Assembly (NCBI GenBank): GCA_944389105.1
Contig: CALXLD010000030.1
Span: forward strand, 1 to 64,000
DNA from: an uncultured Spirochaetaceae bacterium
GTDB taxonomy: Bacteria > Spirochaetota > Spirochaetia > Sphaerochaetales > Sphaerochaetaceae
DNA: 64,000 nucleotides
Reading direction: 5' to 3'
The position numbers and the translations under genes are program-made. The notes beneath the pieces were generated by a model. That model was given only the letters and a program-made list of their open reading frames with translations, was not told where the DNA came from and did not search any database. Shown piece after piece: positions 666-11,792 of the stretch (its first letter is position 1; every line of letters starts with the position of its first letter).

Positions 666-2249
666 TCATTTCTCTGTAACCTGTCCATTTATGATTGCAA
701 GGGAACAGGGGCCTTCATATACCTTATTGTACTCATCATGTATCCACTCGGATTCAAGAGCGAAAGAAGCACCTTCGTCGATTTCCAGGAAGAAATCCTG
801 TGCGCCCGCAAAAGTAGGTGTGACAGTAATATTACCGCTTGTAAGATGAAGTCGTGTATTCTGGCCTTCAAATCGTCCAAGCTCAGCGATATCTGTAAGA
901 TCTCCGACTATTTCGTTATCGACAGCAAGCGTGGCCGTTGATGCCGCATTTACACGACCAGCAATCCTTCCTTTTCTTTCACCGGTAATTGTTGCATTTC
1001 CTCCTGACGGGTTTTCGATTGTCTGTCCTCCCGTGAATATACCAGCAATGCCTCCTGCATTATATCCTGTTACCGTTCCGGAGTTTTCGGCATTCACGAT
1101 TGTTGTTCCGACGGCACTCGCTGTAATACCGCCTGCCTCTGATTCTTTATGGTTTAAATCTGCTGTGATATAACCAGCGTTAACAGGTGACTGCAGAATG
1201 AGCGTCATTGTTTGATTAGATCCCTGGGTACGGCCTATGATTCCTCCAGCCTGATATCCACCGTATATCGCACCTATATTGGTTGCACCGCTTATTGTAC
1301 CGGTCTGTTTCTCTGCCGCTACAATGATTCCAATAATGCCACCTGCGGTATCGTCTGCACCTGTGCCTCTTGCTGTTATTGAGCCGCTATTTGAGACTTC
1401 TGACATATTGAGAACAGCTGTGGCTGCTGAATAGCCAACAATGCCTCCAATGCCTGCTGCACCGCTTTCAGATGTAATATCTCCGGAATTAGATACATTC
1501 TCCATTGTTACTGTGCTGAATGCCGTAGAATTCAGAGCGCTTATTGCTCCGATAATTCCTCCTGTTTTCACAGGTGAGATGATATCAGCGTCGTTGCTGA
1601 CGTTTTTTATTGATATCCTATCTCCTGTATCAGCGGCATACGCACGTCCAATGAGACCTCCTGTACCATCAGCTGCCGTGATACTTCCAGATGTTATATG
1701 CACATTATCAAGTGTCAGAGAACCTGTTACATAGCCAGCTACGATTCCAGCTGAATCCGATTCAGCAGAATCGATTACAGCATTCTCGAATGTAAGATTT
1801 CGTACTGTGAGGTTATTTGCGTTGCCAATGAAGCCTGCCGAAACTTTTCTTTCCTCTTTAATCTTTAGTCCTGTGATAGTGTGCCCGCCACCATCAATTA
1901 CACCTGAGAACACATGAGTCACTGTATCCCTGTTTCCGCTTGCCGCGGGGTTCCAGGAGATGGAACTTAGGTCGAAGTCGCGCTCAATCGTGATAGTAAC
2001 GTTGTTAAGAAGCCCCTGGTCAGCTGCTTTCTGGAGGGCAAGAAGATCGCCAGCATCTGCTACAGTTAGTGTCGTGGCACCTGCCCGATACCAGTCGGGG
2101 TCAGCTGTGTCTGTCGGAAGAACGGACACGGGTTCTGTGCTTCCTGCTGGCCTGTCCGTTCCCGGAATCGGGAGTGGAACAAGAACGTATTGTGTACAGG
2201 ATGTGGTAAGTATGATTATTGCCATACCTAGTATAAGAATCTTCCTCAT
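666..2249 (-). CDS. CTQY-type surface lipoprotein with GLUG-like repeats
   Basis: This encodes a 527-residue predicted lipoprotein of unknown role, probably exposed at the cell surface. Residues 1-17 form a basic then hydrophobic signal peptide ending LTTSC, so Cys18 would be lipidated; this relaxed lipobox suits spirochaetes. The mature end reads CTQYVLVPLPIPG, shared in its first residues with two other lipoproteins in this window. After a linker, residues 117-130 (GVIDGGGHTITGLKI) open a region of about nine GLUG-like repeats, with cores such as GGLIG, GGIIG and GGIVG near residues 168, 198, 230, 268, 303, 335, 373, 399 and 427. GLUG repeats occur in bacterial surface and adhesin-like proteins and probably fold as a beta-helix. 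The start is fixed by AGAGG six bases before ATG. A G9 tract lies in the likely promoter spacer, so expression may be phase-variable. Lipoprotein assignment is firm; adhesin function is inference. Confidence 0.85.
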   Translation of the reverse strand: MRKILILGMAIIILTTSCTQYVLVPLPIPGTDRPAGSTEPVSVLPTDTADPDWYRAGATTLTVADAGDLLALQKAADQGLLNNVTITIERDFDLSSISWNPAASGNRDTVTHVFSGVIDGGGHTITGLKIKEERKVSAGFIGNANNLTVRNLTFENAVIDSAESDSAGIVAGYVTGSLTLDNVHITSGSITAADGTGGLIGRAYAADTGDRISIKNVSNDADIISPVKTGGIIGAISALNSTAFSTVTMENVSNSGDITSESGAAGIGGIVGYSAATAVLNMSEVSNSGSITARGTGADDTAGGIIGIIVAAEKQTGTISGATNIGAIYGGYQAGGIIGRTQGSNQTMTLILQSPVNAGYITADLNHKESEAGGITASAVGTTIVNAENSGTVTGYNAGGIAGIFTGGQTIENPSGGNATITGERKGRIAGRVNAASTATLAVDNEIVGDLTDIAELGRFEGQNTRLHLTSGNITVTPTFAGAQDFFLEIDEGASFALESEWIHDEYNKVYEGPCSLAIINGQVTEK

Positions 2250-2266
2250 ATTAACCTCTTATGATA

Positions 2267-2295
2267 ACTCTACCCCCCCCCGTTGTGCTGGTCAA
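2267..2295 (-). promoter_or_regulatory. Candidate promoter with a G9 tract in its spacer
   Basis: On the reverse strand TTGACC (2295-2290) and TAGAGT (2272-2267) are 17 bp apart. The spacer is eight mixed bases followed by nine G. Transcription would begin around 2260, leaving a very short leader that starts at the AGAGG ribosome-binding site. Gain or loss of a G would move the spacing off 17 bp. The -35 match is good and the -10 match is moderate. Confidence 0.5.
2273..2281 (-). repeat. G9 homopolymer tract upstream of the GLUG lipoprotein
   Basis: Nine consecutive C on the plus strand, read as G9 on the coding strand, end 23 bases before the lipoprotein ATG. Runs of this length are prone to slipped-strand changes. 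G tracts upstream of or within surface-protein genes are a known phase-variation device, including in treponemes. Confidence 0.9.
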
Positions 2296-2571: not shown

Positions 2572-4190
2572 CTATGGGGCGATATTTTCGGTATTGTTAT
2601 CGAGCAAAGTAGTTGTACCGTTGACAGTGACAGAGCAATCCGAACCCCAATAGCCGCCGAGATTATTGTCTTGAATCCATGTGAGGTGATCGGGGTTATC
2701 TGTTGTGAGTGTTGTTGGATACGTACCATCGCTTGCGAGAAAGAGTCGTTTTGCCTGATTCTGGCTTGCATCGGTACGGGACATGTCAAGCGTAACATTT
2801 TTGAGTGAGACATTTGCTGGATAGTTGTAATTCATTGCTGATGTATCACCGATGACAAGCGTTGCATATGCTACGTATGTGCCTTGACTCCATTTACTGC
2901 CATCAAATCTTAAATCAGTTTCAAATGTTCCCTTTGATGTGATAATTGAGTCGGATATCTCGGCTGTTCCACCGCGTACAAGGACTGTGACATGAGTGCC
3001 AGTAAGAGTACTGTTCCTGATGGTTAAGTCCATGTCAATATTTGCACAGATTGCTGTTCCCCCGTTTGCATTGAGCATTGAATCCTCAACGATTACTGTA
3101 ACAGCAGATGGTGGATTCATAGCATTTGTAGCTATTGAGTATGCACCAGCTGAATTGACTACAGAGCCATTTTTCACTATTACTGTTACACCTTCAGCTG
3201 TTGGGAAGATTGCGCTTCCGCTGGCGTTCAATGTCACGTTATCGATAGTGAAAGTAGAATTGGCCCCAATCATAAAGTTTGCATTGTTGCTTGCTCCAGT
3301 TGGATTCGTGATATTTATTGTACCGTTTTCAAAGCTGACGGAAGAAGCAGCTGCAATAACAATGCTAGATGATTTCTCTATTGAGAGAGTGTATTCATTT
3401 AGATAGATTGTATTTGATGCGCCATCTTCAATCAGAAAATCAGAGAGGTTAAGATCAGCTGTCAGTCTTGCTTTTCCATATTCTTCAAGTACTGTCTGAA
3501 GAGTATTTGCATCTGTTCCTTCTCCGACATCATAAGGTAATGAGGCTACAGCGTTGTCATTGTTATCTGCTATGGTATCTGCTATATCAGTGGCTTCTGC
3601 GTTGTCCGCATCTATTTTAACTGAGATAGCCGAGCTGACGATTACAACAGCCGAGGCTGGAATGCTGCTTCCGATATAAATACCGGTTATGGCTATATTA
3701 TCTGTTGCAGTTATCGAGAGACCTATTGCCTTGATAGATCCGCTTTCAACGTTGATGATGTTTGCCATCTCGCCCGCTGCCGAGGTTGATACGGATATAG
3801 TCAATCCTGAGAAATCTACAGCGGCATTTGAAATGAGACGGAAAAGTGAGAGAGTGCCAGCTCTTTCGTCGGTGTTGAACGTTTCAATTCCTGTTGTTAA
3901 ATTTCCCTCAGTAGACGAAATGAGTGAGATGTTTCCCTTGAGCGCAATGTTCTTACTGATGCTGATGCTCGCATCAGCCGTTGTAAGAACGACGTTCCTT
4001 GCCTCTATTGTATCACCATCTGAAGCTGTTTTGATGGCTTCTAGAAGAGAAGCGGAATCAGTTGCAATAAGCTGGTTGTCTACACCCCCCCCAGATGGTG
4101 GGAAAGGGTACGGTACTATCCTGTATTGGGTACAGGAGGCGGCCATGATTATTATGGCTGCAAAGTAAAGATATTCTTGAGTTTTTTCAT
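2572..4190 (-). CDS. CTQY-type beta-helix lipoprotein, apparently frame-OFF at an A6 tract
   Basis: This is a second lipoprotein whose mature end begins CTQYRIVPYPFPP. The body contains short beta-strand repeats such as DGDTIEARNVVLTTADASIS and ISSTEGNLTT, typical of a right-handed parallel beta-helix as in pectate-lyase-like surface proteins. The reading frame holding the lipobox (MAASC) is open from 4236 to the stop, but its upstream residues make no signal peptide. The natural start is ATG at 4190, five bases after AAGGGG. From there A6 (4187-4182) leads out of frame to a stop after 12 codons. One more A would give MKKTQEYLYFAAIIIMAASC, a textbook lipoprotein signal. A G8 tract lies in the coding region just after the anchor. 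I read this as a contingency gene caught OFF; a sequencing error or simple mutation is the alternative. Function is unknown. Confidence 0.75.
4085..4092 (-). repeat. G8 tract inside the lipoprotein coding region
   Basis: Eight G on the coding strand encode the Gly-Gly-Gly after PFPPS, just behind the lipid anchor. The downstream frame is open at eight G. A one-base change would cut the protein to a short lipopeptide. Confidence 0.85.
4182..4187 (-). repeat. A6 tract directly after the natural start codon
   Basis: ATG at 4190-4188 is followed by six A. The lipobox frame needs one more base here: seven A join the start to the signal peptide. Poly-A runs at the second and third codons are common slippage sites. 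Confidence 0.7.
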
Positions 4191-4236
4191 AAAACCCCTT
4201 CTTAACTATATCATATGGAGCAGTTGTTGGAAACAA

Positions 4237-9748: not shown

Positions 9749-11119
9749 CTATTCGATATCCATCTGTCCTACGATGAAACCGTCTGCGTCGTAACATGTC
9801 AGTGTCCAGGTGAGATCTGCTACAAGTGCTGAACCTCCTACGACACCTCCTATGGTACTGCTGTCATTGTAGTAGTAGTCGACGTTTCCAACTGTAATGA
9901 GCTGGTTGCCATAAGCATCTGTTCTGACTGTGTTCAGAGCTATACTATCAATAGACTGATTCATACTGTCGATTATCTGTAGTTTTCTTATGGCGCTTGT
10001 TACAGTGGAACCAGAAGTACATGCAATGTCCTCCTGTGAGACGTATATACGAATGGTTCCTTCAGGATTGGTAGTTGTGGAATATGTTGAGCCCTGAATC
10101 ATAAAAGATGAATATGATGTGTTGTTATTTGAAATGCTGAATGCTTCATCCTCATTTGTTTTTACCGTAACATTGGTTGGATTAGCAAGCAGGATGATAT
10201 GTTCAGCATCGTTTCCTGTATTTGTTGAATCTGTAGACATATCGAACCATTTATAATCAGCAGGATTTGCTTTACCGTTTGCTACAGGAAAATAATATCC
10301 GACTCCATAGGATCCCTGTATAGTGCCATAGTTTGCACAGTTGGTAACCTTGATTATAGGCTTTGTTACATTGCTCAATCTGGAAATAGTGTTGTGGCTA
10401 CCAATGAATACAGCAGCCCTCTCTCCAGTTATGTCTCCATAGTTCACACAGTTCTCGAATGTCACATAAGAATATGATCCATCATCGAATTGACCCCATG
10501 GGTATCCGCCAACGAACGCACCACCATATGCAGTAGTCTGAGAAGCATAGTTGGTACAATCTTCGAATATAGTGTACCCTTGGAATACCTGGCTTACGTA
10601 GCAAGAGGTGTTGTTGTTATTTGGCTCATTGAAATCACCATATGCATCGACGTTTCTGAATGTAACTGTCTGGGTGCTATTCTGCACACCATTGTTATAA
10701 AGTACACTATTATAGTGATGCGTCATGAATGCAAACATCACAAGTCCATCTGGTCTGTATTCAAGGTTGCTTATTGTGCCTTCAAGGAAGTTGTCTATCA
10801 GACCATAGGCTGCATTGTATACCATGTATTTACGCTGTAGATCGCTGAGTTTGTTGTTGATAAGAGCAAATGATAAACCAGAAAGTGAATGGTTGTTGAA
10901 ATCGATGTTACCACGGAATATTCCGATAGCAGGGGAGTCCATATCATCTGTGAATTCAAGGTCATTCATAACACTGAAATAGAAGAAACCTTCCGGATCA
11001 TTTGCCATAGCTGGTACAAGTGTCTTGATGTGTGAGAACTGCTCCTCATTGTAAATCAGATAAGGATCCTGCTCTGTTCCAGTGCCGCCACCGAAGCCGT
11101 TCGTGATTTGCGAACCCAT
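9749..11119 (-). CDS. Downstream part of a frameshifted CTQY lipoprotein (surface domain)
   Basis: The frame opens with GGGTGTEQDPYLIYNEEQFS, the phrase (GTGxxxDPYLIxxxxQ) that begins many GLUG-type surface domains, then has GIFRGNIDFNNHSLSGLSF and repeats such as FENCVNYGDITG and VTNCANYGTIQG. It lacks a signal peptide and has no credible ribosome site. The frame is open upstream of its first ATG to a TGA at 11194-11192 and reads YLNTSTITQLPEDMGSQITN across the overlap, which looks like protein. I conclude it is the second part of the lipoprotein encoded just upstream, separated by a single frameshift between 11194 and 11056. Repaired, the protein would be about 650-700 residues. Separate translation of this part is unlikely. 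Confidence 0.75.
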   Translation of the reverse strand: MGSQITNGFGGGTGTEQDPYLIYNEEQFSHIKTLVPAMANDPEGFFYFSVMNDLEFTDDMDSPAIGIFRGNIDFNNHSLSGLSFALINNKLSDLQRKYMVYNAAYGLIDNFLEGTISNLEYRPDGLVMFAFMTHHYNSVLYNNGVQNSTQTVTFRNVDAYGDFNEPNNNNTSCYVSQVFQGYTIFEDCTNYASQTTAYGGAFVGGYPWGQFDDGSYSYVTFENCVNYGDITGERAAVFIGSHNTISRLSNVTKPIIKVTNCANYGTIQGSYGVGYYFPVANGKANPADYKWFDMSTDSTNTGNDAEHIILLANPTNVTVKTNEDEAFSISNNNTSYSSFMIQGSTYSTTTNPEGTIRIYVSQEDIACTSGSTVTSAIRKLQIIDSMNQSIDSIALNTVRTDAYGNQLITVGNVDYYYNDSSTIGGVVGGSALVADLTWTLTCYDADGFIVGQMDIE

Positions 11120-11754
11120 GTCTTCTGGAAGCTGTGTGATTGTGCTGGTATTAAGGTAATTGAGATGTTTCCGGAAGCGGATATGGTAATTTCACTGGAG
11201 AATGAAAAAGAAGAATCTCCGGTAGAGGTAGAGATTGTTCCAGAAGCAGGGCCTCCAGTATAGCTCATTGAAAATGTTCCAGAGTTCCCGTTGACAGAAT
11301 ATGAAAGCGTATTTGTTACTGAAACATCAGCAGCCGTGATTGCATATGTGTCATTTCCGGTTTTGACCGTATTAAACTCCATTTCAATCGTACCTGAAGT
11401 TATAGAGACTCCAGCCTCATTGTCTACAAATGATGGGTTGAATGTGATAGTAGCAAGAAATGATGAGCCTACTGATCTCTGATTCATAACTGAACGCATT
11501 CTCGTGCCTGATGATACAGCACTCTGCACTGTTCTGGTTATAGTAAGCCCTGAATCTCCGTCTTTTACTTTAGTAAGGAAGCTGTCACTTTGCAGATAGT
11601 TCATCATAGCAATAGCATCTGTTCTATCCTGCTGTGATATCGAGTTATTTCCTCCGAACCCCGGAAATATATCTCCCGGAACGAACACATATTGCGTACA
11701 GGCCGTCATCAGTGTCAGCAGAATAGCCAGTACAGCTGCTGAGATTTTCTTCAT
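11056..11754 (-). CDS. N-terminal part of a frameshifted CTQY lipoprotein
   Basis: ATG at 11754 follows AGGAGG with a five-base gap. The signal peptide MKKISAAVLAILLTLMTAC places the anchor Cys at residue 19, and the mature end reads CTQYVFVPGDIFPGFGG, matching the other two CTQY proteins. The following part is rich in Ser and Thr with beta-strand patterns (GTIEMEFNTV, TLSYSVNGNSGTFSMSYTGG). The last residues after ITISASGNISIT (SFQKTWVRKSRTASVAALEQ) look out of frame: basic and unlike the rest. The sensible continuation is in the next frame. A G9 tract lies 30 bases before the ATG. Function is unknown; a surface role is inferred. Confidence 0.75.
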   Translation of the reverse strand: MKKISAAVLAILLTLMTACTQYVFVPGDIFPGFGGNNSISQQDRTDAIAMMNYLQSDSFLTKVKDGDSGLTITRTVQSAVSSGTRMRSVMNQRSVGSSFLATITFNPSFVDNEAGVSITSGTIEMEFNTVKTGNDTYAITAADVSVTNTLSYSVNGNSGTFSMSYTGGPASGTISTSTGDSSFSFSSEITISASGNISITLIPAQSHSFQKTWVRKSRTASVAALEQSRILI

Positions 11755-11783: not shown

Positions 11784-11792
11784 CCCCCCCCC
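11784..11792 (-). repeat. G9 tract in the leader of the split CTQY lipoprotein
   Basis: Nine G on the coding strand lie about 20 bases upstream of the AGGAGG ribosome site. This is the third G8/G9 tract linked to a CTQY lipoprotein in the window. Confidence 0.9.

Follow-up and report, generated by a model that had tools for sequence, protein, structure and literature searches.

In the window, the 64,000-nt stretch of DNA analyzed here, a tract of nine guanines (G9) lies in the spacer of a predicted promoter, between its −35 and −10 hexamers, ahead of a predicted lipoprotein gene. We consider it likely that this tract is a contingency element, subject to slipped-strand phase variation or graded tuning, and that it belongs to a set acting on the lipoprotein repertoire. 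As read from the sequence, gain and loss of Gs probably give the bacterium a random means of switching or tuning its surface proteins. The anatomy of the promoter, its recurrence, its association with lipoprotein genes, and the differences in tract length among close relatives and paralogs are direct observations.

Anatomy of the promoter

The minus strand from 2300 to 2240, read directly, is aaaagTTGACCagcacaacGGGGGGGGGTAGAGTtatcatAAGAGGttaatATG. Between 2295 and 2267 the order is TTGACC-AGCACAAC-GGGGGGGGG-TAGAGT, followed by TATCAT, AAGAGG, TTAAT, and the ATG at 2249 of a 527-codon gene. The features of this promoter and its gene, and the two other long tracts of the window, are as follows:

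2290–2295, minus strand: −35 hexamer TTGACC, a 5/6 match to TTGACA
2282–2289, minus strand: non-G portion of the spacer, AGCACAAC, 8 nt
2273–2281, minus strand: G9 tract adjoining the −10 hexamer, the predicted length-variable element; the tracts of relatives vary
2267–2272, minus strand: −10 hexamer TAGAGT, spacer 17; TAGAGT also lies directly 3' of the G9 tract at locus L049
2255–2260, minus strand: SD-like AAGAGG
666–2249, minus strand: predicted lipoprotein of 527 residues, lipobox TTSC with the cysteine at residue 18, predicted right-handed β-helix
4085–4092, minus strand: G8 tract of the coding type, just past the lipobox and near the 5' end of the coding sequence in the neighboring lipoprotein gene (2572–4236)
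11784–11792, minus strand: G9 tract without a clear −35 box; the ATG (11754) that opens the lipoprotein gene 11056–11754 follows 29 nt downstream

The spacer (2289–2273) is 17 nt long and nine of its 17 bases are G (2281–2273), so the minus-strand coordinates bear out the original prediction that TTGACC and TAGAGT are separated by exactly 17 bp with nine Gs. A homopolymer of at least 7 nt thus lies between recognizable −35 and −10 boxes, at a spacing near the distance used by the polymerase: 17 bp here, against a genus mode of 19 and 18–19 in the putative locked alleles described below. With a 6-nt discriminator, transcription is predicted to start near 2260, leaving a leader of ~11 nt from the SD-like AAGAGG onward; if the start is so placed, the sequence agrees with the earlier claim of a very short leader beginning at the ribosome site.

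The predicted downstream lipoprotein

The 527-residue protein begins with MRKILILGMAIIILTTSC, a lipoprotein signal. Pfam returned no significant family for the lipoproteins, this one included. A confident structure model built with 13 aligned sequences (A1; mean pLDDT 79, pTM 0.80) places a right-handed β-helix behind a low-confidence linker, and the predicted architecture fits a stalked β-helix surface protein. The nearest solved structure is 3n6z, Bacteroides ovatus BACOVA_03286 (E 2e-4, TM 0.38/0.57), annotated as a putative IgA1 protease; this structural match is no evidence for protease activity in the 527-residue protein. No close ortholog is present in the protein search, where the best full match has 32% identity, and a protein scan of the named genomes found no relative. 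Among homologs identified by protein similarity, and not by their tracts, most have a tract at the 5' end. One homolog (L134) has an (AG)12.5 dinucleotide repeat (1183–1207) in its 5' coding region in place of the G tract.

Genome-wide set of tracts

We located all tracts of at least G8 in the 2.13 Mb genome (47 contigs) and read the surroundings of each (n = 25). Ten are G-strand tracts between TTGACA or TTGACC and TAnnnT that abut the −10 box, each before a predicted lipoprotein gene (locus, G count, and spacer: window 2273, G9, 17; L033, G8, 18; L035, G10, 20; L036, G9, 19; L040:10219, G8, 17; L042, G9, 19; L044, G10, 19; L045, G9, 19; L049, G9, 19; L050, G12, 23). One is a C10 tract in the spacer of an opposite-strand promoter before a lipoprotein gene (L041/C24). 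Eight are coding tracts at the 5' ends of genes for exported proteins, close to the signal peptide or the lipobox (window 4085, L031, L038, L039, L040:3001, L040:5804, L046, L048), and three stand a short distance upstream of such genes with no clear −35 box before the tract (window 11784, L032, L043). The remaining three (L034, L037, L047) are unassigned. Altogether, 22 of the 25 tracts are associated with the 5' ends of genes predicted to encode exported proteins, for the most part lipoproteins. The original prediction of a slippery G tract in a promoter spacer is supported, here for a sigma-70-type promoter of a predicted lipoprotein gene, and has to be widened from the one locus it described to a genome-wide set.

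A clear start could be assigned for six of the coding tracts; four of these are in frame, whereas L038 and L040:5804 are out of frame, with 658 and 772 codons open at another tract length. In the neighboring lipoprotein gene with the coding G8 (4085–4236, minus strand), the best SD/ATG start is not in the lipobox frame, so that the frame also appears broken 5' of the tract. The G9 tract at 11784 may occupy a spacer or a leader position. The gene it precedes, 11056–11754 on the minus strand, overlaps a downstream 456-residue open reading frame (9749–11119) in another frame; these could represent a single frameshifted gene or two separate ones. At L043:3113, a G9 tract directly precedes TTGAAA-17-TAGAAT, a promoter-like site of a lipoprotein gene, in a position that resembles an upstream element and not a spacer. 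The poly-C promoter (L041/L234, C24:72045–72075) reads TTGACA-CTA-C10-GTTGCA-TATACT before a 648-residue lipoprotein, a form that is rare compared with the G-strand one. Three MutS_V matches are present in the genome, so a hypermutability due to missing MutS was ruled out.

Tract length and spacer length

Two sister species (G041 and G046) differ in spacer length at all five of their orthologous contiguous-tract promoters (20/21, 19/22, 19/20, 20/19, and 17/18), with tract lengths taken from draft assemblies, probably MAGs, that may be off by one. Four of these are differences in G count, and the fifth comes from one extra A bordering the tract. Flank identity ranges from ~69% to 99%; the best pair (248/250 and 107/111) has G10 versus G9. 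The two promoters whose G stretch is short or interrupted do not differ by a single letter between the two species. In another genome (G040), the paralogs L157 and L159 have flanks identical at 58/60 and 60/60 positions with G8 versus G9, and other copies of the same cassette core carry G8, G9, and G11. This near-identical cassette of promoter, leader, and signal peptide is dispersed before different lipoprotein genes (L153–L161), and several contigs end in or near it, as expected of repeated sequence. That gain or loss of G alters the spacing, as originally predicted, is in keeping with this variation among orthologous and paralogous tracts; the graded transcription that was part of the same claim would follow by analogy with the reports on Treponema pallidum and Neisseria.

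Which spacing is favored can be approached in two ways. First, the spacer of contiguous-tract promoters with TTGACA in the genus peaks at 19 bp (57/110), followed by 18 bp (20/110). Second, among 20 promoters with the same boxes and no G run of at least 8 (for example GGGGTGGGGG, or GGGGGG alone), the spacer is 18 in 11 and 19 in five, counts that are not all independent because the set includes some orthologous pairs or repeated copies. Most of the 20 precede the same kind of lipoprotein. At L193–L197 (G044 and G045), the tracts are broken by a single T or A (GGGGTGGGGG, GGGGGGAGGGGG), mostly with a spacer of 19, and again stand before this lipoprotein kind. Interrupted G tracts are possibly locked alleles. 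Should the interrupted and short promoters be fixed in an active configuration, the optimum would be 18–19 and the 17 of the window would be slightly short; judging by these spacers, the best spacing in this genome is not necessarily 17 bp.

Tract length compensates between offsets 9 and 10, with n of at least 10 in 11/22 versus 7/62 (Fisher p = 4e-4). Across the genus, tract length stays near nine (clustering at 8–10) whatever the remainder of the spacer, and the overall correlation is not significant (rho −0.12). Selection on total spacing is visible just in part. An apparently strong compensation between offset and tract length in other spirochaetes was set aside because the search pattern limited the spacer to 21; a search without this limit supports compensation in genus g24 alone, weakly in g27, and not in g25.

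The narrow range of tract lengths irrespective of offset is what one would expect if the G tract were a fixed part of a special promoter class, for instance one whose regulator or alternative sigma factor wants a G-rich spacer beside a TAG.. −10 box, with length being no switch. Two further features agree with a fixed element: lipoprotein genes also retain G-rich spacers in which the G run is short or interrupted, and G is strongly preferred on the coding strand, with hundreds of G-strand sites against eight C-strand ones, a bias that spacing alone does not explain. We nevertheless regard a fixed element as improbable. Orthologous and paralogous tracts differ in length despite near-identical flanks, and interrupted tracts and rare C-strand forms also serve as spacers (poly-C spacer promoters gave eight matches versus six in the control, of which two or three look genuine). 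Similar tracts lie in the coding regions of the same kind of gene, where no promoter factor would act, and other spirochaete genera have far longer ones (G12–G17).

It is less probable still, and indeed quite unlikely, that transcription depends on a different promoter, with the tract touching just a minor start or the leader. An 11-nt leader is short enough to raise this concern, as do the missing −35 box at 11784 and the TTGAAA hexamer that follows the L043 tract. Against it, the minus strand from 2200 to 2620 contains no promoter-like site other than that at 2267–2295, and the paralogs keep the order of boxes, SD, and ATG with leaders of ~20–30 nt.

Recurrence and chance

Taken in isolation, the promoter match at 2267–2295 is no better than chance: it agrees with the consensus at 9 of 12 positions, and the 420-bp region yields one such match where shuffled sequences lead one to expect 1.1. 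The G9 tract itself is unusual against the run-length distribution of the window, which has 24 G/C runs of length 5, two of length 6, none of length 7, one of length 8, and two of length 9. The combination of hexamers and G tract is far beyond chance across the genome and the family. We searched for TTGAC-N4-14-G8-TAnnnT, with the reversed pattern as the control, and found nine matches versus none in the genome itself. We take the promoter as real because the same arrangement recurs genome-wide, and not from the local match. Ordinary TTGACA/TATAAT promoters number three in the genome, the same as in the control, and are too rare to give a baseline spacing; looser TTGACA/TAnnnT promoters without a tract do not exceed the control in 609 kb of related sequence. 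The −10 boxes 3' of the tracts are weak (TAGNNT).

The pattern occurs in 36 of the 48 genomes of the window's genus, with at most 14 sites per genome, and at 274 sites in 48 of the 139 genomes of the family (a total summed from our table), where the reversed pattern has no match. In a sample of the phylum, it is present in 80 of 393 genomes, mostly from this family and one other large family (f3), with a single control match. Tracts reach G17 in the latter family, and G12–G17 are seen in other spirochaete genera, including in single-contig assemblies. A homopolymer error or a random G run beside promoter-like hexamers, which the chance-level local match and the error-prone homopolymers of draft assemblies might suggest, is contradicted by this recurrence and can be given hardly any credence.

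Among the loci examined, 66 tract promoters have a downstream gene that could be read, and in 53 of them this gene encodes a lipobox-like N-terminus. The named genomes with the pattern are uncultured Spirochaetaceae and Spirochaetales MAGs, Candidatus Ornithospirochaeta stercoripullorum, and a few from other phyla. Four promoters of this kind, with a nearly identical cassette, occur in the Ca. Ornithospirochaeta genome. Streptococcus acidominimus (L096, L118) has two copies of TTGACA-N9-G9-TAGAAT upstream of two related genes for predicted surface proteins, and single matches occur in Gemmiger, Christensenellaceae, and other MAGs. The matches in these unrelated bacteria suggest convergence.

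A proposed model for random variation of the lipoprotein coat

We infer slippage, promoter activity, length-dependent transcription, surface location, and selection by the host or phage, and the contingency element could work as follows. Slipped-strand mispairing during replication would add or remove Gs, and the changed number would alter how far apart the −35 and −10 boxes stand as well as their helical phase relative to each other. Subpopulations would then transcribe the lipoprotein gene strongly, weakly, or hardly. The roughly ten promoters with spacer tracts and the roughly eight 5' coding tracts, the latter switching by frameshift, would be set independently, so that a clonal population of a host-associated spirochaete could display many combinations of surface lipoproteins, with host or phage pressure as the presumed selecting force.

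We lean, by a modest degree, towards a broader reading in which this system is a genus-wide random switchboard in uncultured, host-associated, Candidatus Ornithospirochaeta-like bacteria. The lipoprotein coat would be set combinatorially by about ten spacer promoters with poly-G, of which some are carried on a duplicated promoter/leader/signal-peptide cassette, and by about eight poly-G coding switches, and single-base interruptions would lock some promoters at 18–19 bp. Other spirochaete families would have the same architecture, which would also have arisen convergently at the surface-protein genes of unrelated gut bacteria.

As a main promoter style of lipoprotein genes in uncultured relatives from chickens, the rumen, and other hosts, the arrangement suggests an old and widespread route to surface variation in host-associated spirochaetes. 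The paralogous promoter sets from G8 to G12, together with the interrupted, putatively locked ones, offer a natural series for measuring the effect of spacer length on transcription.

Comparison with known systems

Poly-G promoter switching in spirochaetes is already known from the agent of syphilis; our search of open-access papers found nothing on phase variation in Sphaerochaeta or on poly-G switching in gut spirochaetes. The closest likeness is T. pallidum tp0126, which encodes an OmpW homolog and has a poly-G tract between the −35 and −10 boxes with the best transcription at a 17-nt spacing (PMC7864442). Both are spirochaete promoters in which the length of a poly-G spacer sets, or is predicted to set, the spacing. 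The tp0126 gene encodes an outer-membrane protein in another spirochaete family, whereas the gene studied here is predicted to encode a β-helix lipoprotein, is served by one of about ten such promoters, and belongs to a group with a typical spacing of 18–19 and not 17. The T. pallidum tpr genes likewise have poly-G at the promoters of paralogous surface-protein genes: G8 or fewer is permissive at tprE, tprG, and tprJ, and tprL has 7–11 Gs within an isolate and a start four nucleotides downstream of the tract (PMC7864442). They differ in that the tprL tract is placed differently relative to the boxes and that the tpr products are porin-like. In Neisseria meningitidis, porA has poly-G in the −35/−10 spacer and graded expression (as cited in PMC7864442), the same placement as here, but at a single locus with an unrelated gene in an unrelated phylum. 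The coding poly-G contingency loci of Campylobacter, Helicobacter, and Neisseria share their anatomy with the G8 tract at 4085 and the seven other coding tracts of this genome, whereas the tract at 2267–2295 is a promoter tract.
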